Assembly: GCA_949281375.1 (NCBI GenBank) | Contig: CASDLT010000010.1 | Location: 183,182 to 247,181 of the forward strand | DNA from: an uncultured Nitrosomonas sp. | GTDB taxonomy: Bacteria > Pseudomonadota > Gammaproteobacteria > Burkholderiales > Nitrosomonadaceae | Length of the DNA: 64,000 nucleotides | Reading direction: 5' to 3' | Part shown: one piece after another, positions 7,350-24,999 of the stretch | Layout: every line of letters begins with the position of its first letter | Numbering within the stretch: the first letter of the stretch is position 1 | Notes under the pieces: model-generated | Databases searched by the model: none | Seen by the model: the letters and a program-made list of their open reading frames with translations, nothing else | What the model was told of the DNA's origin: nothing | Position numbers and translations under genes: made by a program

Positions 7350-8849
7350 TTAATGATCGTGGCTGGCGCCAGCCTTGCCCAGTTCCGCCTTCAGCGCGAA
7401 ACTATTGCCGCCGGCGTATTGTTCCCCCGCAGACAGCCCCTTCAGCACTTCAACCATTTCGCCATCGCTGCGCCCCAGCTCCAGAGGACGAGCTTCAAAA
7501 TACTGATCGTAACGGCCGAATACCACCGTCCAGTCTCGTAACGTTTGCAGGGCGCTCACCGCCACCGCCACGGGAACCTGGATTTCTTCCGCCACCAGTT
7601 CAGCATTGACAAACATACCGGGACGCCAGCGCCCATCTTTGTTGTCAAGCTCGACCCGGGCCGTCGCGGTGCGGGTCTGGCCACCGATCAGTGTGGAAAT
7701 ATACGTCACAGTGCCCTGGCTTTCGATATCCGAAGCGGTTGCTTTGACCGCAACCTTCTGGCCTTCGTGAATGATATTGAGATCTTTTGGATAAACCGTA
7801 ACCGCCGTCCATACCGTGGACACATCGGCGATAGTATAAATTTCGCGATCTTCCTTCAGCGCTTCCCCCAGCGCAATCGCTTTGGCGATGATGATTCCTG
7901 AGATCGGCGCGCGTATTTCATAATGCGCGTAATTGGATTTGAGGTAATTAGCGTCTGGTTGCACACCCAGGGCGCGCAGTTTGGTGGTGGCAAGTTCCAA
8001 AGCAATCTGGGCTTCGTTCCACAATTCCTGCGCCAAAAGAAAATCTTGTTTGGCGCTGATCTTTTCCTCCCATAACTGTTTTTCACGTTCATATGTCGTT
8101 CTCGTCAGCGCCAAGCGTTTTTTCGCAACGAAATACTGGCTGCGCAAATCCGCCAGCATCGGGCTTTCGATCACCGCCAGCACCTGGCCCTTTTTGACAT
8201 GCTGACCATGATGTCCTTGCACATCGGTCACCAGACCGGCAACCCGCGGCACCACCCGCACGATGTTATGTTCGTTGAAAACCACTTCTCCCGGCAGTTT
8301 CAGCGTCGGGCGAATGATTGCCGCCCCTGCGGTCAGAAGTTCGATACCCATACTTTTCAGCATGTCATCGGCTATTTCCACCCGTCCTTCGACCTGGCTA
8401 TGGCTCCAGCGCATGATTTTGCCGTTATGTTCAGCCGCAACGGCGATATCAAATGAATGCGGCTCTTCCACGACATGATCGCCAAGCAAATAATCCGCTT
8501 CCGGCGTAAATTTAAAGAGCTGCGCTGGCGCGCCCAGGCGAGATAACGTTACCGCTGCTTTGGCCGCCGTCGGCGGCAACAATGTCCCTTTTTCATACAA
8601 AAATATCCGGAACTGCGGCGGCACGCCTTTTTCAAAAATTGTCAGTTCCAGGCTGAAATCCTTATCGGTAAATAACTTGCCGCCTCGAGGCCCAATATTG
8701 ACTTGGTTATCGGTCAGTTTTTCATGGACCGCATCGCTTTCCGCTCCTTCTGGTACCCCAGAAGGCTTATCCAATATGAGTATCAATCCACCCAGTACAA
8801 TCCCTGTGCCGATCACGGCCAGGATGGGCATCCATTGTGTTTTGTTCAT
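7350..8849 (-). CDS. czcB: CzcB-type periplasmic adaptor (membrane fusion protein)
   Basis: A 499-residue adaptor linking CzcA to the outer-membrane channel. It has an N-terminal membrane anchor (about 7-27), an extra N-terminal domain with IGPRGGKLF as in CzcB proteins of heavy-metal systems, then barrel-sandwich and alpha-hairpin regions; VVPRVAGLVTDVQGHHGQ and the IRAPISGII stretch are typical lipoyl-like halves. The C-terminus GASHDH could contribute metal ligands. Start at 8849 is 3 bases after the czcC stop, so the two are one transcript. Membrane fusion proteins of this kind may also bind metal and deliver it to the pump; that role here is inferred. Confidence 0.93.
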   Translation of the reverse strand: MNKTQWMPILAVIGTGIVLGGLILILDKPSGVPEGAESDAVHEKLTDNQVNIGPRGGKLFTDKDFSLELTIFEKGVPPQFRIFLYEKGTLLPPTAAKAAVTLSRLGAPAQLFKFTPEADYLLGDHVVEEPHSFDIAVAAEHNGKIMRWSHSQVEGRVEIADDMLKSMGIELLTAGAAIIRPTLKLPGEVVFNEHNIVRVVPRVAGLVTDVQGHHGQHVKKGQVLAVIESPMLADLRSQYFVAKKRLALTRTTYEREKQLWEEKISAKQDFLLAQELWNEAQIALELATTKLRALGVQPDANYLKSNYAHYEIRAPISGIIIAKAIALGEALKEDREIYTIADVSTVWTAVTVYPKDLNIIHEGQKVAVKATASDIESQGTVTYISTLIGGQTRTATARVELDNKDGRWRPGMFVNAELVAEEIQVPVAVAVSALQTLRDWTVVFGRYDQYFEARPLELGRSDGEMVEVLKGLSAGEQYAGGNSFALKAELGKAGASHDH

Positions 8850-12326: not shown

Positions 12327-13367
12327 TTGGACATTACCGTAGCAGTAGATTGTATGGGTGGCGATCATGGCCCCCATGTCACCGTTCCATCCGCGCTTGA
12401 ATATCTCCGGCATGACCCTGAAGCCAATCTCATCCTTGTCGGTATTCCTGACGCCATCGAGGCGGAATTGCGCGCTGCAAATACGAAATTAAGCCCCCGA
12501 ATACGCTTGCACCCAGCAACTGAGGTCGTGGGCATGGATGAATCCCCGGCCATGGCGTTGCGGTGGAAAAAAAACTCATCCATGCGGATTTCGATCAACT
12601 TGGTCAAAACCGGTGAGGCCCAAGCTTGTATCAGTGCTGGAAATACCGGCGCATTGCTGGCAACGTCACGATTCGTATTAAAGACCATCCCAGGTGTAGA
12701 CCGCCCGGCGCTTGCAGTCATATTGCCTACGTTGACAGGCCACACCTATGTATTGGATCTGGGCGCCAATGTCGATTGCACAGCCGAGCATTTATTTCAA
12801 TTCGGAATCATGGGCGCCTCATTGGTATCGTCAGTGGAAAACAAGCCTTATCCGAGCGTTGGACTGCTGAACATCGGTGAAGAAGAAATCAAGGGAAATG
12901 AAATCGTCAAGCAAGCAGCCGAATTGTTACGAAATAGCGGACTTAACTTTTATGGCAACGTAGAAGGCAACGACATTTACCGCGGCACCACCGATGTCGT
13001 TGTCTGCGACGGATTTGTAGGTAACATCACCCTCAAGACTTCCGAAGGCCTGGCTCAAATGCTGGCCACTTATTTACGCGAAGAATTCAAACGCAATTTA
13101 CTGACGAAATTGGCCGGTATCATTGCAATGCCGGTCATTAATTCTTTTAAGCACCGAGTCGATCATCGGCGCTATAATGGCGCCAGTTTCTTGGGCCTGC
13201 GCGGGATCGTCATCAAAAGCCATGGCTCCGCCGACGCTTATGCATTTGGTTTTGCCATCAAACGCGCCGCTGATGAAGTGCGCGGCGGCATGTTACGGCG
13301 GATCAGCGAACGAGTGTCTGAATTTTCCCACCATTCTCAAATTTCTCCACAACCAATGGCAAAATAA
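12327..13367 (+). CDS. plsX: Phosphate acyltransferase PlsX
   Basis: PlsX makes acyl-phosphate from acyl-ACP for PlsY, the first committed step of phosphatidic acid synthesis. The 346-residue protein shows the N-terminal [12 protein letters not shown] motif, [12 protein letters not shown], the ANVDC segment and [16 protein letters not shown], all diagnostic. The start is a TTG, the first in-frame initiator before the conserved motif. It is followed by fabH with TAATG overlap of stop and start, so the two are translationally coupled. Peripheral membrane enzyme, standard length. Confidence 0.96.
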
Positions 13368-14323
13368 TGTATTCAAGAATCATTGGAACAGGCAGTTATC
13401 TCCCTGAAAAAGTACTCACCAACCGTGATCTTGAAAGCATGGTCGACACCAGCGATGAATGGATACGTACCCGCACAGGCATTGTCGAACGACATATTGC
13501 GCGAGTAGATCAAACCGCCAGCGATTTGGCAGTATATGCCAGTAAAAATGCGATGGAAGCGGCGGGGGTCACCAGCAAGGATATCGATCTGATTATTGTG
13601 GCCACCACCACGCCCGACATGGTTTTTCCGAGCACGGCTTGCATTTTGCAGAACAAGCTGGGCATCGACAATTGTCCTGCATTCGATGTTCAGGCAGTCT
13701 GCAGTGGGTTTGTATACGCGCTAGCAACAGCCGATATGTTTGTCAGTTCGGGTAAATGCCGCAATGCACTGGTGGTAGGCAGCGAAATTTATTCTAAAAT
13801 CATCGACTGGAATGACCGCAGTACCTGTGTACTGTTCGGCGATGGCGCGGGCGCCGTTGTGCTGTCACAAAGCGAGCAGCCGGGCATTATGTCTTCCCAC
13901 CTGCACGCCAGCGGCAATTACAGTAAAGTGCTCTCCGTTCCGGGCAGCATCAGTGGAGGCAAAGTTCAAGGGAATCCATACATCAATATGGAGGGCAATA
14001 CCGTGTTTAAATTTGCGGTAAAAGTCCTGGAAGAAGTTGTTCAGGAAGCAGTTGCTAAAAACGATCTGCAGCCGGCCGACATCGATTGGTTAATTCCCCA
14101 TCAAGCCAATATCCGCATTATTCAGTCCACTGCAAGAAAACTTGGCATCCCGATGGATAAAGTAGTGGTAGCGGTCGATAAGCATGGCAATACCTCAGCA
14201 GCGTCGATTCCGTTGGCCCTGGACCTTGCAGTACGCGACGGACGCATTCATCCGGGACAATTGGTTCTGCTTGAAGGCGTCGGGGGCGGTTTTACATGGG
14301 GGGCAGTGCTGTTGCGCTGGTAA
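13367..14323 (+). CDS. fabH: Beta-ketoacyl-ACP synthase III
   Basis: FabH condenses acetyl-CoA with malonyl-ACP to start fatty-acid synthesis. The 318-residue sequence carries the catalytic triad Cys112 (AVCSGF), His245 (PHQANIR) and Asn275 (HGNTSAAS), and ends with the GGGFTWG signature. Its ATG shares an A with the plsX stop codon. Expected cytosolic dimer with substrate preference for short acyl-CoA; chain preference cannot be read from sequence. Confidence 0.97.
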
Positions 14324-14326
14324 TTG

Positions 14327-15271
14327 ATGAATATTGCATTTGTATTTCCCGGACAGGGATCCCAGTCGATCGGAATGATGAATGGATATGCAGACTTTCC
14401 CATCATCCAGCAGACATTTCAAGAAGCAGCGGACATCCTTGAACAGGATTTCTGGTCTCTGATCAACTCAGGAGCCGCTGAAGACATCAACTCGACAGTG
14501 AACACGCAGCCGCTGATGCTGATCGCCGGTATCGCAGTTTATCGAGCCTGGATCAGTTCGGGCGGCCGGCAACCATCATTAGTGGCCGGACACAGCCTTG
14601 GAGAATACTCCGCTCTTGTCGTCTCGGAAGCACTGAGTTTCGCTGATGCGTTGAAATTAGTCCGTTTCCGTGCGCAATCGATGCAGCAGGCAGTTCCCGA
14701 AGGGATGGGTGGAATGGCCGCAGTATTGGGATTGGAAGATGGTATTGTGGAACTGATATGCCATGAGGTAACAAGCTCGGGTAATGGTGAAACTCTCGAA
14801 GCAGCCAATTTCAATTCCCCTGGACAAATCGTCATTGCCGGACATAAAAATGCCATTCTGCGCGGTATTGAATTAGCCAAAGCAAAAGGGGCAAAGCGTG
14901 CACTCATGTTACCGATGAGCATTCCTTCACACTGCTCGCTCATGAAGCCAGCAGCGGATCATATGCGTCAGCAACTGGAATCAGTTACGTTGCACTCACC
15001 TCGCATTCCCATACTGCATAATGTCGATGCAAAATCCCATGCCGATACTGCGACGCTTAAACAGATTCTGGTTCAGCAGCTTGTAAGCCCCGTGCGTTGG
15101 GTAGCCACTATCCAAGCGTTACCAGCTTTTGGCATTACCCATGTGATTGAATGCGGCCCAGGGAAGGTATTGATGGGACTGAATAAGCGCATTGATTCCA
15201 ACTTACAGCATATCTCTCTTGCCAACAGTGAAGCAATTAAACAGACCATTAGTAATTTAAATGCACAATGA
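14327..15271 (+). CDS. fabD: Malonyl-CoA:ACP transacylase
   Basis: FabD loads malonyl groups onto ACP. The N-terminal FVFPGQGSQ motif, the nucleophilic Ser90 in GHSLGEYSAL, and the later SIPSHCSLM segment with the catalytic His identify it; 314 residues is normal. I use the ATG at 14327, which directly follows a TTG that also could initiate; the fabH stop is one codon earlier, so coupling is tight either way. Confidence 0.96.
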   Translation: MNIAFVFPGQGSQSIGMMNGYADFPIIQQTFQEAADILEQDFWSLINSGAAEDINSTVNTQPLMLIAGIAVYRAWISSGGRQPSLVAGHSLGEYSALVVSEALSFADALKLVRFRAQSMQQAVPEGMGGMAAVLGLEDGIVELICHEVTSSGNGETLEAANFNSPGQIVIAGHKNAILRGIELAKAKGAKRALMLPMSIPSHCSLMKPAADHMRQQLESVTLHSPRIPILHNVDAKSHADTATLKQILVQQLVSPVRWVATIQALPAFGITHVIECGPGKVLMGLNKRIDSNLQHISLANSEAIKQTISNLNAQ

Positions 15272-15321
15272 TGCCATGATTTTTAGCTACGAATGTTCAT
15301 AGTTAGATCCAGGAATTGTAT

Positions 15322-16059
15322 ATGGAAAATAAAAAAGCGTTAATTACCGGGGCCAGCCGAGGCATTGGGGAAGCCATTGCGCTCAAGCTGGGTCGATCAG
15401 GTGCAATCGTCATTGGAACCGCGACTACGGAACATGGCGTCAATAACATCAACCTTTATCTGCAGCAGGCCAAGATACAAGGCATGGGAATTCTACTAAA
15501 TGTCAATGATGCTGAACAAATTGCCTCTGCTTTGCAAGGCATTCGCGAGAAATTCGGCGACATTGAGATCCTGGTCAACAACGCCGGAATCACACGGGAC
15601 AATTTACTTGTGCGGATGAAAGATGAAGAATGGGATGAGATACTCGAAACCGATCTCAAATCCGTTTTCCGGTTGAGTCGAATAGTGCTTCGCGCTATGA
15701 TGAAAGCTCGTTATGGACGAATTATCAATATTTCTTCTGTTGTCGGGGCCATCGGAAACGTCGGTCAGGCAAATTATGCCGCAGCCAAAGCCGGTATGTT
15801 CGGTTTCAGTAAATCACTAGCCCGTGAGGTAGGCAGCCGCAACATTACTGTCAATTGTGTCGCACCCGGTTTTATTGATACTGATATGACCCGCGCTTTG
15901 ACGAATGAACAGCAACAGAGCTTAATTCAACATGTTCCTCTGGGAAGATTAGGACGCTCTGAAGACATTGCTTCAGCGGTAGCTTTTCTAGCTTCTTCTG
16001 CAGCAGGCTATATCACCGGCGCCACACTGCATGTGAATGGCGGGATGCATATGGATTGA
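15322..16059 (+). CDS. fabG: 3-oxoacyl-ACP reductase
   Basis: NADPH-dependent short-chain dehydrogenase for the first reduction step of elongation. It has the Rossmann motif TGASRGIGEA near residue 9, the NNAG motif at 87-90 and the catalytic Ser139, Tyr152 and Lys156, one residue off E. coli FabG numbering. Length 245. The start is taken at the ATG at 15322, spaced correctly from AGGA; a TTG two codons earlier is less likely. A 50-base gap separates it from fabD. Confidence 0.95.
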   Translation: MENKKALITGASRGIGEAIALKLGRSGAIVIGTATTEHGVNNINLYLQQAKIQGMGILLNVNDAEQIASALQGIREKFGDIEILVNNAGITRDNLLVRMKDEEWDEILETDLKSVFRLSRIVLRAMMKARYGRIINISSVVGAIGNVGQANYAAAKAGMFGFSKSLAREVGSRNITVNCVAPGFIDTDMTRALTNEQQQSLIQHVPLGRLGRSEDIASAVAFLASSAAGYITGATLHVNGGMHMD

Positions 16060-16199
16060 AATGATTTGAAAAAAAGATGGACTAGAATGCAAATAAAAAA
16101 TGAAAAGCTTCTTGTACTACAGGGCAAACTCAGTTTTGTTGGCATCTAAAATTTGATAGAATCAACCAGTTTTTCTTACCTGATAAGGAAGGTATCTCG

Positions 16200-16436
16200 A
16201 TGGAAAATATAGAGCAGCGTATTAAAAAGATTGTTGCCGAGCAACTTGGTGTTAATGAAGCAGAAGTCAAAAATGAATCATCCTTTGTCAATGATCTCGG
16301 AGCAGATTCTCTCGATACAGTCGAACTGGTCATGGCCTTAGAAGAAGAATTCGAATGTGAAATTCCCGATGAACAAGCTGAAAAAATAAACACTGTTCAA
16401 GAAGCCATTGATTACGTCACTGCAAACACAAACTAA
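16200..16436 (+). CDS. acpP: Acyl carrier protein
   Basis: A 78-residue acidic protein with the phosphopantetheine attachment site Ser37 in [10 protein letters not shown]. It carries growing acyl chains for all fab enzymes and for lipid A and phospholipid acyltransferases. A strong ribosome-binding site (AGGAAGG) precedes the ATG. The 140-base gap before it contains a TAGAAT box at 16157-16162 that could serve as an internal -10, with only a poor -35, so an extra acpP promoter is possible but weakly supported. Confidence 0.98.
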
Positions 16437-16464
16437 TTTTTTCTGTTAAATAGGTGGAGTTATT

Positions 16465-17706
16465 TTGTCTAAACGCAGGGTCGTCATAACTGGGCTCGGA
16501 ATTATTTCGCCCGTCGGAAATTCTGTATCAAGTGCGTGGGAAAGTCTCGTTGCAGGAAAATCGGGAATTTCGCGGATCACCCGTTTCGATACATCCAGTT
16601 TTTCTTCTCAAATTGCTGGCGAAGTAAAGGATTTCGATATTCACGATTATCTATCAGTCAAGGAAGCCCGTCGTATGGATATCTTTATCCACTACGGCAT
16701 GGCCGCGGGAATGCAAGCCATCAAGGATGCCGGCATAGACGACATAACAGGACTTGCCTCAGAACGGATAGGGATTAATATTGGGTCAGGCATTGGCGGT
16801 TTACCCATGATCGAAAACACTGACTCCGCCTATCATGCTGGTGGTCCGCGCAAAATCTCGCCGTTTTTCATACCTAGTACGATCATCAATATGATCGCTG
16901 GTAATTTATCCATCATGTATGGGTATAAAGGTCCCAATCTTGCCATTGTCACGGCATGCACGACGGCTACCCACAGTATCGGCAGTTCGGCGCGCATGAT
17001 CGAGTATGGAGATGCCGATATCATGGTATGCGGCGGCGCGGAATCCTGCGTCACTCCTCTTGCCATTGGCGGATTCGCCGCTGCGAAAGCATTGTCAGTG
17101 AACAACGATCATCCTGAAAGCGCTAGCCGCCCTTGGGATAAAGATCGGGATGGCTTTGTTCTAGGAGAAGGCGCAGGCATTCTGGTGCTGGAAGAAATTG
17201 AACATGCCAAAAAGCGCGGTGCAAAAATTTATGCTGAATTGGCTGGTTTTGGAATGAGCGCCGATGCGTTTCATATGACCGCCCCTAGCGAGGATGGCGA
17301 AGGTGCAGCTCGTTGCATGACCAATGCACTTAACAGCGCTGGAATCCACACTTCCGAGGTTGAGTACATTAATGCACATGGTACTTCCACGCCGCTGGGC
17401 GATATTGCGGAAACCATTGCAGTAAAACGATGTTTTGGAGATCATGCCAGAAAGCTCGCAGTTAATTCCACAAAATCAATGACCGGTCACTTACTCGGTG
17501 CTGCCGGTGGTGTAGAAGCAGTGTTTTCCACGTTGGCTATCCATCATCAAGTTGCCCCTCCGACGATCAATCTGGTCAATCAGGATCCACTCTGCGATCT
17601 GGACTATGTTCCTAACACTGCCCGTGAAATGACCATAAACGTAGCTTTATCAAACTCATTTGGGTTTGGAGGTACCAACGGAACACTGGTTTTCCGTAAA
17701 GTATAA
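16465..17706 (+). CDS. fabF: Beta-ketoacyl-ACP synthase II
   Basis: FabF elongates acyl-ACP chains. The 413-residue sequence has Cys165 (TACTTATHS), His305 ([11 protein letters not shown]) and His342 (TGHLLGAAG), the Cys-His-His set of KAS I/II enzymes, and the C-terminal NSFGFGGTN. The start is a TTG preceded by GGTGGAG at good spacing. It follows acpP by 28 bases, the usual acpP-fabF pair. Confidence 0.97.
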
Positions 17707-17723: not shown

Positions 17724-18719
17724 ATGCATACCCTTATCCGCCGATTGTTCTGGGCAATATTTTCAATCATTTTGCTGGTGGGATGGTTTTATCTTCACGT
17801 CCACTCCAGCATCAAGTTAACTTCATCACCCTACGAATTTTCCATTTCACCCGGTAGCAATCTTAAGCAAATTTCTCAGCAACTCGAGGATGCTGGGGTC
17901 ATTCATAGCAAATGGTCATTCATTCTTCTGGCCCGCTATCTTAATCGAGAATCTGCAATCAAGGCCGGCGATTACCAAATCACCAGCAATCTGACTCAAA
18001 TAGCTCTTCTCGATTATTTAACCCAGGGTGATGCCAAACAGAATGCGATCCAATTCATCGAAGGCAGGACTTTCAATCAACTAAAAAAAATCCTCCTGGA
18101 AAATCCCAATATTCAGCATGATACAGTGAGTTTGACTGAGCAGGAAATTCTGTTTCAGATTGGCGCAACAGAAACTGTTGCCGAAGGATTATTTTTTCCG
18201 GATACCTATTATTTTATCAAGGGCGACAGCGACATGCATATTCTGCGTCGCGCCTATCAAGCCATGCAAACCCATTTGCATACGGCTTGGCATTCACGGT
18301 CTGAAGACTTACCTCTAACCACCCCCTATGAAGCACTGATTCTTGCGTCCATTATCGAAAAAGAAACCGGAATGGAAAGCGATCGCTCCCAAATTGCGGG
18401 AGTTTTCATCAACCGCTTGCGAAAAGGGATGAAACTACAAACCGACCCCTCGATTATTTATGGATTGGGCGAACAGTTTGATGGTAATTTAAGGAAACAG
18501 GATTTACTTGCAGACCAAGCATACAACACTTATACTCGCGCTGGTTTGCCGCCCACTCCTATTGCTCTGCCGAGCTTGGCTTCCATCCGTGCAGCACTCA
18601 ATCCAGCCGAAACTGATGCATTGTATTTCGTTGCAAAAGGAAATGGAGAATCAGAATTTTCCACCAATCTGACCGATCATAATAAAGCGGTTAACAAATA
18701 TCAAAAACAACAAAAATAA
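17724..18719 (+). CDS. mltG: Endolytic murein transglycosylase MltG
   Basis: YceG-family lytic transglycosylase that cuts nascent glycan strands in the inner membrane and limits their length. One N-terminal membrane helix (about 8-28) is followed by a LysM-like part and the catalytic region with the essential Glu in LASIIEKETGM, then FINRLRKGMKLQTDPS and YNTYTRAGLPPTPI, all family hallmarks. Length 331. It follows fabF by 17 bases. In many proteobacteria pabC lies between fabF and mltG and tmk-holB follow; here pabC is absent and a glycosyltransferase fusion comes next. Confidence 0.93.
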   Translation: MHTLIRRLFWAIFSIILLVGWFYLHVHSSIKLTSSPYEFSISPGSNLKQISQQLEDAGVIHSKWSFILLARYLNRESAIKAGDYQITSNLTQIALLDYLTQGDAKQNAIQFIEGRTFNQLKKILLENPNIQHDTVSLTEQEILFQIGATETVAEGLFFPDTYYFIKGDSDMHILRRAYQAMQTHLHTAWHSRSEDLPLTTPYEALILASIIEKETGMESDRSQIAGVFINRLRKGMKLQTDPSIIYGLGEQFDGNLRKQDLLADQAYNTYTRAGLPPTPIALPSLASIRAALNPAETDALYFVAKGNGESEFSTNLTDHNKAVNKYQKQQK

Positions 18720-18767: not shown

Positions 18768-21365
18768 ATGACCCAATTTACCATCGTAGTGCCCACCCTC
18801 AACGAATCTGAAAATATCGATTTACTATTGACCCGTTTATTTGCACTGGACATTCCCAGTAAAAATTTCGAGGTTATCATTGTTGACGACGGATCAAGCG
18901 ATGGTACCCCGGATAAGGTACATGCTTGGGAAAAACGCGCCCGGGTTCATCTGATTCAGCGTACAGAGAAGCCAGATTTAACTGCCTCGATCTTGGCCGG
19001 TGTAGCCGCGGCGCACAGCGATGTCATCGTTGTGATGGATGCTGACCTCAGCCATCCGCCGGAACGCTTATCCGCACTGGTTACCCCGGTATTGAATGGC
19101 AATTTCGACGTCGCGGTCGGCAGTCGTTATGTGCCTGGCGGCAGTACGGAAAATTGGCCCCTGCATCGGCAATTGTTGTCCCGCATCGGCGGATGGATAG
19201 CGCGGCCAATTTGTGATGTCAATGATGCAACGTCCGGTTTTTTTGCATTTCGACGGGAATTGGCGGCCAATATCTCTGGCAATGCCCGTGGTTATAAGAT
19301 TTTACTCGAGCTATTGATGGCTCATCATGGCAAATTACGCGTCATCGAAATACCGATCTGCTTCCATGACCGTACCTATGGTAATTCCAAGCTGTCTTTC
19401 TTTCATCAGCAGGCATATATTCAACGTCTGATCACTCTGGCTGGTGGCACGGTCAACGTTAACACAGCCAGTCGTTTCGCAGCCGTGGGATTATTGGGTG
19501 TTCTCATCGACGCCATCGCCTTTCAATGGATGATAAGCCAGAATACCGGATTGGCGTTGGCGCACTGTGTCAGTTTCCTGGTTGCAGCTACTGCCAATTA
19601 CATCCTGAATTCAAAGTGGTCATTTCGGGCGCATCATGCCGGTTATCTCCAATGGCACCAGTTCGGCCGTTTTCTGACCGTAGGCATGCTTGCACTGCTA
19701 CTGCGTGGCGGCGTACTGGCTTTATTGGTGTATGTACTGGATATATCTCCCATGCTGGCGATATTTCCCGCCATTATCACCACCGCTGCGGTCAATTATC
19801 TTGGCTCAGCATTTTACGTTTTTCCCGACAAAAATAATCTTCCGTCTACTGAAATCCGCTGGCGCATCGCAGCCATTGGCATTGTGCTGTTTGCGGTATT
19901 ACTGCGCTTGGTTTACTTCGGTCTGGCGCAACTCATACCTGATGAAGCCTATTACTGGCAATATGCCCAAAACATGGATCTCAGCTTTTACGATCATCCT
20001 CCGATGGTGGCGTGGTTGATTTGGTTGGGTACTTCGTTGTTGGGAGATAATGAATTTGGCGTGCGCATAGGGGCGATTCTGTGCGGGTTCATCACCATGG
20101 GATATCTGTACGCCTTGGCGCAAAACCTCTACGACAAATCCACTGCGATGCGCGCTGTGCTGTTACTGACCATCTTGCCGATGGGGTTCGCATCAGGTTT
20201 GTTGATGACCCCGGATGCACCATTAAATGCCGCCTGGGCAGCAACATTGTATTATATGGAACGCGCGTTACTCGCCGACCAGCGTTCCGCATGGTTGGGA
20301 ATGGGCATCGCCTTCGGACTGGGATTGCTCTCGAAATACACGCTGGGATTACTCGGCATAGCCGCATTGGTGTTTGTCATCATCGATTCGATAGCACGGC
20401 AATGGATGAAGCATCCGCATCCGTATCTCGCCGCGCTGCTGGCATTACTGCTTTTTTCGCCGGTAGTGATCTGGAACTACCAACACGACTGGGCTTCGTT
20501 CGCGTTCCAGTCAACTCGCGTTCTGGCTGACAACGATCAATTCGGCATCCATGTATTGATTTTCCACATGCTCATTTTACTGACGCCGGTAGGTTTTATT
20601 GCGGCGTTAATGGCCTTGTTTGCGCGTCACGATCAGCAGGCGGATCAGCAGAATAATCGAAGACGCCGTCTCTTCGTGCAAATTTTCACCGGTGTGCCAC
20701 TCGTCATTTTTTTTGCCACGAGCGCTTTCGATGCTCCTCGCTTTCATTGGACGGGGCCGCTCTGGCTTGCCTTATTGCCCACCCTGGCATGGATGATGGG
20801 GCAGACCGAACAGATCGGCAATTTTACTAGGCGAATCCAGGCCGCATGGCAGCCCACGATTATTTCATGCGTATTCGTTTATGCGGCAGTATTGCACTAT
20901 ATGGTGCTAGGCATACCCGGCATACCGTATCAGTTCTTCACCGAGCACTATTTCTGGCGTGAAACTGCTCGTGAGATTCGTCAAATTGTCGCAGATGTCA
21001 GAGAGAAAACCGGTGAAAATCCGATTGTCGTCGGAATGAGCAAGTGGTCGGTTGCAAGCTCGCTGTATTTTTATAATCACGGCGAGGCGGCGCTCGATAT
21101 ACGCTCGCGCAACATGTTTGGTGACAGTGGCGCCATGTATGAATATTGGCATCCTGATCAGTCGCCGACAGACCGCCCCATCATTCAGGTCAGTATGACC
21201 GAGAAACACATCGAGAAAACCCGACGGGGCATCGATGTCAATCCTATGCTGATCCATCCGGGTGCGATCGAATCACGAATCATTGTACGCCATGGAACGC
21301 CCGTGCGACGGGTCTACTATCGTATCTCTGAAGGATTTAAAGGCGTGCCAGACAGCAAAACCTGA
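18768..21365 (+). CDS. GT2-GtrA-GT-C fusion: lipid-linked sugar synthase, flippase and transferase
   Basis: An 865-residue protein of three parts. Residues 1-225 are a GT2 polyprenyl-phosphate glycosyltransferase of the DPM1/GtrB/ArnC kind, with VDDGSSDGT at 39-47, the nucleotide-sugar metal motif DAD at 91-93 and RTYGNSKL. Residues about 230-355 are a GtrA domain of four membrane helices, thought to move lipid-linked sugar across the membrane. Residues about 365-865 are a multi-pass GT-C enzyme of the ArnT/PMT type with Asp392-Glu393 in the first periplasmic loop (PDEAYYW) and YDHPPMVAW. Taken together it could make, flip and transfer a sugar from a polyprenyl carrier to a periplasmic acceptor such as lipid A. 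The sugar and acceptor are unknown. Confidence 0.85.
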   Translation: MTQFTIVVPTLNESENIDLLLTRLFALDIPSKNFEVIIVDDGSSDGTPDKVHAWEKRARVHLIQRTEKPDLTASILAGVAAAHSDVIVVMDADLSHPPERLSALVTPVLNGNFDVAVGSRYVPGGSTENWPLHRQLLSRIGGWIARPICDVNDATSGFFAFRRELAANISGNARGYKILLELLMAHHGKLRVIEIPICFHDRTYGNSKLSFFHQQAYIQRLITLAGGTVNVNTASRFAAVGLLGVLIDAIAFQWMISQNTGLALAHCVSFLVAATANYILNSKWSFRAHHAGYLQWHQFGRFLTVGMLALLLRGGVLALLVYVLDISPMLAIFPAIITTAAVNYLGSAFYVFPDKNNLPSTEIRWRIAAIGIVLFAVLLRLVYFGLAQLIPDEAYYWQYAQNMDLSFYDHPPMVAWLIWLGTSLLGDNEFGVRIGAILCGFITMGYLYALAQNLYDKSTAMRAVLLLTILPMGFASGLLMTPDAPLNAAWAATLYYMERALLADQRSAWLGMGIAFGLGLLSKYTLGLLGIAALVFVIIDSIARQWMKHPHPYLAALLALLLFSPVVIWNYQHDWASFAFQSTRVLADNDQFGIHVLIFHMLILLTPVGFIAALMALFARHDQQADQQNNRRRRLFVQIFTGVPLVIFFATSAFDAPRFHWTGPLWLALLPTLAWMMGQTEQIGNFTRRIQAAWQPTIISCVFVYAAVLHYMVLGIPGIPYQFFTEHYFWRETAREIRQIVADVREKTGENPIVVGMSKWSVASSLYFYNHGEAALDIRSRNMFGDSGAMYEYWHPDQSPTDRPIIQVSMTEKHIEKTRRGIDVNPMLIHPGAIESRIIVRHGTPVRRVYYRISEGFKGVPDSKT

Positions 21366-21486: not shown

Positions 21487-21903
21487 CTACTTCATCACAT
21501 AGTCAACAACCTGCCAGGTTTCATCGGCCGTTTTGCCGAGCGAGATAGTTTCCAGCACGAGATTCTGCGGTGCAAACGTCGCATAGAATTGCAACACAAT
21601 GTATTCTCCTTCGGGGTAGCCCGACAGTGAAGTTGTCGCTCCAGCCGTTGCAATATACCGGGCGGTCACTTTACCGCGGGACGACCGCAGGGCCATTGTC
21701 GATTTCACCCATTCAGCCTGAGCCGTTTTTGACTTCAATAGTTTAGAAGCCTGTTCCCAGCTTTCCTGATAGTCTCCAGCATCTATTCGAGCGAGCCAAT
21801 CACGGGCACTTCGTTCCACTTGAGCCAGAACAGCCCTGTCATCCGCGTATACGTTCGACGCAAACATCAGCAACCACCCTAACAACCAGATTTTCTTTAT
21901 CAT
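21487..21903 (-). CDS. Exported DUF4019 protein
   Basis: A 138-residue protein with a clear signal peptide (about 1-20, ending near VYA) and a body matching the DUF4019 layout: an N-terminal helix with ARDWLARIDAGDYQESW, then SSRGKVTAR and YIVLQFYATFA, ending with ETWQVVDYVMK. It is predicted periplasmic. Function of DUF4019 is not known. It lies 13 bases downstream of the ZIP transporter gene on the same strand, so the two are probably one transcript, which hints at an envelope or metal-related role but does not show it. Confidence 0.75.
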   Translation of the reverse strand: MIKKIWLLGWLLMFASNVYADDRAVLAQVERSARDWLARIDAGDYQESWEQASKLLKSKTAQAEWVKSTMALRSSRGKVTARYIATAGATTSLSGYPEGEYIVLQFYATFAPQNLVLETISLGKTADETWQVVDYVMK

Positions 21904-23539: not shown

Positions 23540-23847
23540 AGGGTCTGCATCGTTAATTGGTTAGTTTGGGTCAGATTGAAATCGACAGTCAGCCGCCAGA
23601 CAATGCCGCCATCGACTAAATAGGCCTTGAAACTGATGTTTCTGGGTTAAAATACCCGTCTATAAATTCCAATCGAAGGGACCGCGTGTTGCAGATAGCG
23701 TGAGTAAAAACGGAGAATCAATGATAATCTCGGCAATTTTTCATGTTCGCACGGGATGATCACAGATCATCATTTGCTTATTGACTCTCGATCAACAAAT
23801 CAGCCTTACAAATTTCATAACTAAAATACCAGAAATAGGTGTACTCA
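23540..23847. other. Divergent intergenic region with short leader ORF and hairpin
   Basis: About 300 bases between pgeF and the ankyrin gene. Near 23620-23650 a TTGAAA/TAAAAT-like pair may be a plus-strand promoter, with sub-optimal spacing of 15. A 12-codon frame at 23721-23759 (ATG after CGGAG) ends inside the 5' arm of a hairpin: GATGATC at 23755-23761, loop ACA, GATCATC at 23765-23771, followed by a T-containing run. This resembles a leader peptide with attenuator, but both elements are small enough to be chance. Confidence 0.3.
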
Positions 23848-24999
23848 ATGATTCAATTAAAAAATATGGTTAATTATATCCGCACTTTCCTCATCCTGAC
23901 GATCAGTTCAACCCTGCTTTGGATTTCTCCCGTCAGGGCCGATGATACAGATTTTCTCAAAGCGGCGTTCTCCGGTGAAATCTCAACCCTCAAGCAGTTA
24001 TTGGAGAAAGGCACGAATGTTGACTATCAGAACGAAATGGGATTTAGCGCACTGATCGTTGCATCCCAATATGGCCATACCGATATCGTTAAATTCCTGC
24101 TGGAAAACAACGCCACGATCGATCTGAAAAATGCAGGTGGAGCTTCGGCGCTGATTATTGCCGCTAAAAATGGCCATGCCGATATCGTCAATCTGTTGCT
24201 GGAAAAAGGCGCCCAGCTCGACACCCAGACCACGGATGGTATTACCGCATTAATGCTGGCGGTACAAAAGGGCCACGAAGCAATTATCGATACTTTGCTA
24301 GCGAATGGTGCGAATATTCATCTACAAACCAAGGAGAAATTAACAGCGCTGATCATCGCCGCAATGGAAGGCAGGGCAACTATCGTCGACAAATTATTGG
24401 CAAAAAATGCCCAAGTCGATGCACAAGCATCCGACAACACCACCGCACTGTATATGGCGGCCAGAAATGGCCATACCGCCATCGTCGAAAAATTGCTGGC
24501 GCACAAGGCTGCGGTCAATTTACTTGCAATCAACGATACCACTCCGCTGTTCGTGGCAGCCCAGAATGGTCATACCGATATTGTCAAAGCACTGCTGGCC
24601 AAAAATGCCAAAGTCGATTTACAAGACAAGAATGGCGCCACCGCATTGACGCTGGCAGCCCTGATTGGCAATACCGATATTGTAGAATTACTGATCAAAC
24701 ATGGCGCCAAAGTCGATCACAAGGCCACCAACGGGTTTACCGCACTGATACTGGCCGCTCAAAACGGACATACCGCCACCATCGAAGCATTGTTGAACAA
24801 TGGCGCCACGATAGATCTGCAAAACAACGACGATGTAACCGCACTAATGTGGGCTGCACTGCATGATCACGCTGATGCGGTTAAAGTGTTACTGGCCAAA
24901 GGTGCCAGCACCAAACTCAAAAGCAAAACAGGTAAAACTGCCGCAGAGATAGCCAAAGATCCGGCCATCAAAGAAATGCTGCAGTCGGTTTCGAACTAA
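23848..24999 (+). CDS. Exported ankyrin-repeat protein
   Basis: A 383-residue protein with an N-terminal signal peptide (hydrophobic stretch about residues 10-28, cleavage after VRA) and about ten ankyrin repeats of 33 residues filling the rest, each with the TAL-x-AA-x-x-GH-x-x-IV-x-x-LL pattern. The last, partial repeat ends near EIAKDPAIKEML. Ankyrin arrays bind other proteins; the repeats are close in sequence to each other, suggesting recent internal duplication. I use the ATG at 23848, correctly placed behind AGGTG; a GTG three codons earlier would include that site. It appears to be a single-gene unit; the partner protein is unknown. Confidence 0.9.
   Translation: MIQLKNMVNYIRTFLILTISSTLLWISPVRADDTDFLKAAFSGEISTLKQLLEKGTNVDYQNEMGFSALIVASQYGHTDIVKFLLENNATIDLKNAGGASALIIAAKNGHADIVNLLLEKGAQLDTQTTDGITALMLAVQKGHEAIIDTLLANGANIHLQTKEKLTALIIAAMEGRATIVDKLLAKNAQVDAQASDNTTALYMAARNGHTAIVEKLLAHKAAVNLLAINDTTPLFVAAQNGHTDIVKALLAKNAKVDLQDKNGATALTLAALIGNTDIVELLIKHGAKVDHKATNGFTALILAAQNGHTATIEALLNNGATIDLQNNDDVTALMWAALHDHADAVKVLLAKGASTKLKSKTGKTAAEIAKDPAIKEMLQSVSN

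Follow-up and report, generated by a model that had tools for sequence, protein, structure and literature searches.

The window analysed here, that is, the whole stretch of 64,000 nucleotides from an uncultured Nitrosomonas sp. (assembly GCA_949281375.1, contig CASDLT010000010.1, positions 183,182 to 247,181 of the forward strand), contains a gene whose product joins a DPMS-type synthase of lipid-linked sugar to an ArnT-type glycosyltransferase in a single polypeptide. We consider it probable, at about 0.68, that this fusion combines in one chain the two enzymes of a periplasmic glycosylation system of the three-component type, a model set out in the accessible portions of PMC11127046 and PMC8035078. 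The N-terminal DPMS-type GT2 domain would move a sugar from a nucleotide sugar to polyprenyl phosphate at the cytoplasmic face of the membrane, the lipid-linked sugar would reach the outer leaflet by way of either the GtrA/DPMS transmembrane (TM) domain or another protein, and the ArnT-type GT-C domain would transfer the sugar to a periplasmic acceptor, most likely lipopolysaccharide (LPS) or another envelope glycan. Synthase and GT-C are both present and genetically coupled, with the flip part predicted only. Such a fusion would keep donor synthesis and donor use at 1:1 and should avoid the trapping of scarce carrier lipid, a phenomenon described in the available part of PMC12826051. The gene is an ATG-started open reading frame (ORF) with exact boundaries, arranged as follows.

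18768..21365, + strand: fusion gene, 865 amino acids, comprising a DPMS-type GT2 domain, a four-helix GtrA/DPMS TM domain and an ArnT/PMT-type GT-C domain (ORF, Pfam, model and fold match)
18768..19442, + strand: GT2 catalytic domain of GT-A fold, residues about 1-225 (Pfam PF00535, PDB 5mlz, residue mapping)
19458..19823, + strand: GtrA_DPMS_TM domain, residues about 231-352 (Pfam PF04138 at 236-352; model helices)
19842..21335, + strand: GT-C domain, residues about 359-856, with the first periplasmic loop and a C-terminal domain (Pfam PF13231, ArnT 5f15)

The three domains proposed in an earlier, sequence-only reading of this gene are all found above the curated Pfam cut-offs and in the order of the pathway: Glycos_transf_2 at residues 5-166 (E 1.5e-31), GtrA_DPMS_TM at residues 236-352 (E 2.7e-21, 117 of 117 profile positions, 76.4 bits against a gathering cut-off of 26.1) and PMT_2 at residues 409-569 (E 6.7e-51, 160 of 160 profile positions). 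An AlphaFold2 model built from 51 fusions (mean predicted local distance difference test score 88.2, predicted template modelling score 0.89) places the helices of the middle domain at 231-257, 262-285, 296-323 and 328-351. Against solved structures, residues 1-354 of the model align with the Pyrococcus DPMS (PfDPMS) 5mlz at a Z score of 30.0 over 344 residues. The root-mean-square deviation (rmsd) of this match, 7.7, is high, so that the individual parts agree but the angles between the domains may not. Residues 359-856 align with ArnT 5f15 at Z 28.4 over 434 residues (rmsd 4.2). Since alignment of the GT-C part with ArnT by sequence is weak (E 0.017), the assignment to the ArnT fold rests on the structural match. 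The N-terminal half carries the GT-A domain with a DXD motif and the C-terminal four-helix TM domain that characterize a type-III DPMS, and the PMT_2 domain together with the ArnT-like fold places the remainder in the GT-C superfamily. The predicted topology has GT2 inside, followed by the four helices, a GT-C helix at 361-383 and the first loop at 384-412 outside, as in ArnT. The periplasmic loop on which the earlier reading had made its GT-C assignment depend is included in the modelled ArnT-fold match, together with the C-terminal domain.

The window copy retains the residues that catalysis would require. In the part of PMC5526996 available, the mannose contacts of PfDPMS are D89, H94, R117 and K178, the carrier-phosphate ligands are R117, R131 and S135, and D91, R202 and K208 sit at the donor phosphates or the A-loop. 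Their counterparts in the window protein are D91 (for D89), D93 (D91), H96 (H94), R120 (R117), R134 (R131), S138 (S135), K177 (K178), R202 and K208, with the DAD motif at 91-93; the carrier-phosphate and donor residue set of a type-III DPMS is therefore complete in the window copy. Where counted, the mapped residues are kept in 50 or 51 of the 51 aligned fusions (D91 in 50, D93 in 51, H96 and K177 invariant), and at the position of the PfDPMS metal ligand Q93 the window protein has a serine, S95. The first periplasmic loop of the GT-C part contains E393 and the run D409-H410-P411-P412. Both of its acidic residues, E393 and D409, are present in 51/51 fusions, as are H410, R433 and D483, and the GT-C residue set is complete in all 58 family copies checked. 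The sequence-only reading had pointed to DAD at 91-93 and DE at 392-393 as catalytic metal motifs; both occur in the window, but position 392 is D in 35 of the 51 fusions, E in 10, Q in 5 and H in 1, so that only the glutamate of the second motif is invariant. The suggestion that the fusion looks active agrees with the intact active-site residues of the window copy, from which activity may be expected.

The fusion is not special to the window genome, being near-universal in the family sample and found elsewhere. A survey of Nitrosomonadaceae, which had been proposed as a check, finds a relative at E<=1e-40 in 117 of the 120 genomes sampled and a near-full-length copy in at least 108 of the 120. 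The best 80 loci in named genomes include Nitrosomonas, Nitrosospira, Nitrosovibrio, Bosea, Rhizobium, Ancylobacter, Pararhizobium, Wenzhouxiangella, Synergistota and Desulfobulbales, and among them the same domain order recurs in many genera at 35-90% identity; this recurrence, with the family count, excludes chance or misassembly as its source. Outside Nitrosomonadaceae the fusion is sporadic. Of the 367 genomes in a class-wide sample that do not belong to the window's genus, at least 5 have it (G225, G084, G203, G303 and G397), with only two candidates scored per genome, and in a phylum-wide sample 6 of 396 genomes outside the genus have a match at E<=1e-60, counted by score without regard to architecture. 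Broken copies occur in genome G014 and at locus L128. Genome G495 has, beside an intact-length copy elsewhere, a split copy whose GT2 part lies after mltG in a new 589-aa frame (L147, L148) and whose remainder lies 2.2 Mb away with the window's downstream genes still behind it; this is either a rearrangement or a misassembly (the assembly is 89% complete, with a stretch of N). A phage origin, or a moron, was considered and rejected, as phage and viral matches reach the GT2 part only among the records listed: none of the 30 phage records with a match covers 80% of the query, the viral contigs give 3 loci, and no phage match to the GT-C part is found among the 20 of the 30 records listed.

The middle domain, which the sequence-only reading had taken for a GtrA flippase, is here the membrane domain of the DPMS. 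As this is the TM domain that a type-III DPMS already carries, flipping is unproven, and of the proposal that one polypeptide makes, flips and transfers a lipid-linked sugar, the first and last steps are backed by a complete DPMS fold and an ArnT fold, whereas the flip is a prediction only. The flippase role of GtrA-type proteins in the membrane crossing of polyprenyl-monophosphate sugars is itself only proposed in the portions available of PMC11127046, PMC8035078 and PMC7389260. We would put the odds slightly above even that the middle domain flips nothing and is only a type-III DPMS membrane domain, acting as an anchor and a surface for the carrier lipid, with another protein moving the lipid-linked sugar. 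The 5mlz alignment runs over residues 1-354 with the middle domain included, and PfDPMS without its TM domain still makes dolichyl phosphate mannose, its authors assigning to that domain functions distinct from catalysis (PMC5526996, available part). The middle domain also diverges faster relative to GT-C in paralogs that lack GT2, with a median TM/GT-C divergence ratio of 1.38 in 16 GT2-less copies versus 0.98 in 37 full-length ones (Mann-Whitney p 1.3e-6, kinship ignored). These 16 copies were chosen by a match starting at about residue 181-232, so that their possession of a middle domain proves little. GT-C-only relatives without it exist, moreover, both in other families (L023) and in one genome of the genus Nitrosomonas, which carries the full fusion as well (G472, contig C64, L233) and where a 518-aa frame matches residues 363-860 at 59% and no GtrA match is found in the preceding kilobase.

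Retention of R313 in TM3 in 55/55 rows, GT2-less copies included, speaks for some role beyond GT2. By position only, R313 (49/51 fusions) and N343 (40/51) may match R95 and N132 of Listeria GtcA; according to the part of PMC7389260 available, R95 in TM3 is needed for glycosylation of lipoteichoic and wall teichoic acids, and N132 in TM4 is also essential. P22 GtrA, though, has no arginine matching R313 in the alignment. The idea that the middle domain is kept for the sake of GT-C was weakened by the faster divergence, by the way the GT2-less copies were selected and by the GT-C-only copy of G472.

Second paralogs that have GtrA and GT-C and lack GT2 are common in Nitrosomonadaceae. Those at L143, L144, L146, L151 and L159-L170 belong to Nitrosospira-like and some Nitrosomonas genomes, and at L143 a GT2 remnant lies directly upstream (ORF 7830-8264, matching residues 3-70). 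Among fusions of Nitrosospira-like genomes, DAD is deleted in G442, D93G is combined with H96Y in G416, and several changes are seen in G424, G440 and G461; the fused GT2 of G410 is also degenerate. A free-standing GT2-GtrA DPMS at E<=1e-45 occurs in 15 of the 120 genomes, all within one genus of 23 genomes. In the eight copies read and in the different one of G410 (L205), equivalents of E13, D91, D93, H96, R120, R134, S138, R202 and K208 are present. ManC lies within 25 kb of the free-standing gene in 12 of the 15 genomes, and in some the gene has a membrane-protein neighbour of its own; it may therefore belong to another polysaccharide pathway and feed GT-C as a by-product. A like-for-like replacement of the fused GT2 by this enzyme was weakened by position 177, which is alanine in 8/8 Nitrosospira-like copies read, while L205 has its own GFK motif.

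This pattern of decay bears on whether the chain is in practice mainly a GT-C, with GT2 a redundant remnant and the carrier-linked sugar drawn from a common pool, which we regard as improbable. The association is in its favour: in 10 of the 15 genomes that have a free-standing DPMS, the best-preserved fused GT2 is absent or altered at one or more residues, versus 1 of the 8 that lack it (Fisher p 0.027; kinship is ignored in these tests, whose scope is one genus of 23 genomes). A stricter limit of two changes gives 8/15 versus 1/8 (p 0.086), and without the doubtful genomes G448 and G467 the counts become 9/14 versus 0/7 (p 0.007) or, by the stricter limit, 7/14 versus 0/7 (p 0.047). In the window's own genus, however, no residue of the GT2 set is changed in the window copy or in any of the 22 copies read (20 of them, L001-L020, being the best matches to the window and so a favoured sample), and the window genome has no such free-standing DPMS at E<=1e-45. 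Separately, on contig C34 of the window genome (L214:531-1893) a small GtrA-like ORF overlaps, by eye, the end of a GtrB-like GT2 ORF, and the genome may thus also hold a conventional GtrA-GtrB pair.

The two halves of the fusion have not always travelled together. In the tree of GT2-GtrA parts, 41 core fusions make up a single branch (support 100/100). Their GT-C parts cluster together (100/99) with GT2-less and GT-C-only proteins among them, in a GT-C tree with long branches. Proteins of G203, G303 and G397 lie outside the core lineage in both trees and look like a second fusion lineage, subject to long-branch caution, as do L025-L027, whose tree placement is weak. Of 39 plasmid records with a match, 20 were listed, 7 with the match in one piece and 13 in two. 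In three two-piece Rhizobium records the GT-C gene adjoins a DPMS (GT2) gene in the same direction; the split GT-C nests within alphaproteobacterial fusions (a group of 8 rows, 95/94), while the adjacent GT2-GtrA protein sits in a different clade with unfused DPMS proteins (100/100). Probably, therefore, the native GT2 disappeared and a DPMS of foreign origin was acquired next to GT-C. A GtrA domain scores over the cut-off on one of the three split GT-C proteins (L132), and none was found by the Pfam scan on the other two (L133, L134). On the Rhizobium rhizogenes plasmid of L133 (L133:1-2304), genes annotated as caspase-family and TIR-domain lie a few kb from the split pair.

Because GT2 has been repeatedly damaged, lost or replaced, the covalent link is not obligatory. 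We prefer to think of GT-C as the conserved core and of GT2 as a replaceable feeder, probably capable of acting in trans. A bolder proposal, that the single chain makes the polyprenyl-phosphate sugar, hands it across the membrane and transfers it, with the TM domain as hand-over between the active sites and the GT2 "feeder slot" swapped in evolution, is rather doubtful; if the feeder-slot part were true, lineages could change their envelope sugar while keeping the same GT-C.

As to the sugar, the DPMS-type pocket points to GDP-mannose as the likeliest donor, though this is no more than a guess, and a ManC match is found in 116 of the 120 family genomes, the window genome (G000) included. The acceptor is most likely part of LPS or another envelope glycan, judging from gene neighbours in relatives that were picked by eye from more than 40 loci without a background rate. 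A lipid A acyltransferase-type gene lies 38-71 bp upstream at L126, depending on the start codon, and a dTDP-glucose dehydratase with further rml-like genes lies upstream at L153, L156 and L157 (RmlB tested at L153, the others by eye). At L144:517-5318, and also at L151 and L149, a GT2-less copy is found near NeuB-like (below cut-off), cytidylyltransferase/KdsC-like, surface-carbohydrate and Wzy_C genes; G474 has two copies of this NeuB-like/Wzy_C region, with the GT-C frame broken in one (L149). A D-glycero-D-manno-heptose kinase-like gene (below cut-off) and an epimerase accompany L116, two-component regulators are found at L096 and L116, and L134 has neighbours annotated as MprF, MipA and histidine kinase. 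By eye, no envelope-glycan neighbour was recognised at L071, L084, L120 and L125. A protein acceptor, as in bacterial O-mannosylation of the PMT type, seems unlikely. The GT-C part does carry a PMT_2 domain and matches the Pmt4/Pmt2 fold with Z 23-25 over about 355 residues, and GT2 has the full DPMS pocket; however, ArnT matches more of it (434 residues with the C-terminal domain included, Z 28.4), and lipid A and surface polysaccharide genes are among the neighbours in distant relatives.

The reading as a one-chain glycosylation system has several observations to answer, all of which weigh against it. The GT-C part scores 36.7 bits with the NCBIfam ArnT equivalog NF009784, against a curated cut-off of 567. 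With GT2 damaged or missing in many Nitrosospira-like copies, one chain for all steps is not a family-wide rule, and the alanine at position 177 of the free-standing DPMS means that this enzyme may use another sugar. Genome G410 (99% complete) keeps the fusion, has no ManC match and combines its degenerate fused GT2 with a free-standing DPMS. Within the window's genus the fusion lies next to fatty-acid and mltG genes, which give no clue to the pathway. An obligatory GDP-mannose donor is not established. That G410 keeps the fusion without a ManC match speaks against it; the pairing of that absence with a degenerate GT2 at first seemed to favour it, but G461 has a degenerate GT2 with ManC present, and G434 (72% complete) an intact GT2 with no ManC match.

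In the window the fusion closes a fabH-fabD-fabG-fabF-mltG row, with the following neighbours.

13367..17706, + strand: fabH-fabD-fabG-(gap where acpP is expected)-fabF, start of the gene row (ketoacyl-synthase Pfam for fabF; fabH, fabD and fabG by eye)
17724..18719, + strand: mltG, directly upstream of the fusion with a 48-bp gap (Pfam YceG; a genus-conserved neighbour)
21487..21903, - strand: convergent DUF4019 gene at the end of the run (ORF list, Pfam)

The position behind mltG, remarked on in the sequence-only reading, is shared by 76 of the 77 Nitrosomonas-genus genomes that have both genes, and by 0 of 30 such genomes in other genera of the family. That tmk is common in this place elsewhere was also borne out, as 14 of 16 genomes sampled from the same order but not from the genus have it behind mltG. 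Insertion of the fusion into a core operon, between mltG and tmk, found no support: none of the 109 Nitrosomonadaceae genomes with both genes has tmk on the same contig as mltG at a distance of up to 20 kb, although contig breaks could hide some neighbours, and this includes genomes with the fusion elsewhere. Across the family sample, then, tmk stands away from mltG with or without the fusion, and an insertion displacing it is not needed. In G010, a Nitrosomonas genome without the fusion, tmk is on a different contig and small ORFs stand behind mltG, two of which (L150:5344-6254) encode similar small predicted secreted proteins, the first without a Pfam family. Elsewhere in the window, 23839-24999 encodes a 386-aa protein with apparently many ankyrin repeats, relatives of which are at the same place in only some Nitrosomonas loci. 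A scan for regulatory sites gave 17 terminator-like sites versus 9.1 in shuffles and 11 promoter-like sites versus 13.7, the latter not above the shuffles, and was not used.

No description of the three-domain fusion was found by title and abstract start in open-licence PMC literature, a search covering neither subscription papers nor database architecture pages, where the fusion may already be known. In the available portions of text, the terms "fused", "fusion" and "single polypeptide" are absent from PMC11127046, and "fused" and "fusion" from PMC8035078. A chain that holds synthase, GtrA-type domain and GT-C at 1:1:1, together with its GT2-less and damaged relatives, offers a ready-made natural set for testing membrane crossing, and equally for testing channelling versus free diffusion. 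For nitrifying bacteria it would, in addition, be a defined envelope glycosylation enzyme of near-universal occurrence; in an open-licence PMC search on the LPS of nitrifying bacteria, no paper mentioning Nitrosomonas europaea was among the matches listed.

Among known systems, PfDPMS (5mlz/5mm1) resembles the window protein in its GT2 domain and four-helix TM domain over residues 1-354, at 30% identity and with the catalytic residues mapped. PfDPMS, however, stops after the TM domain, where the window protein continues with a complete GT-C, and it has DADLQH in place of DADLSH. ArnT of Cupriavidus metallidurans (5ezm/5f15) shares the GT-C fold over residues 359-856 (Z 28), but identity is about 15% and the window protein falls below the NCBIfam ArnT cut-off. 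In pathways of 4-amino-4-deoxy-L-arabinose, ArnT and ArnC are separate proteins. That synthase and GT-C are normally separate, as the sequence-only reading had held, is also true of phage P22 gtrABC, a system in which, in the portion available of PMC11127046, a carrier-linked sugar is likewise made, moved and used outside; it differs in having three separate genes, in the order gtrA-gtrB-gtrC, and a GtrB without the DPMS-type H96, R134, S138 and K177. The split form on Rhizobium plasmids, with a GT39 gene beside a GT2 gene, belongs to the same GT-C lineage and in L132 keeps a GtrA domain over the cut-off, but its DPMS is encoded separately and belongs to a different clade.

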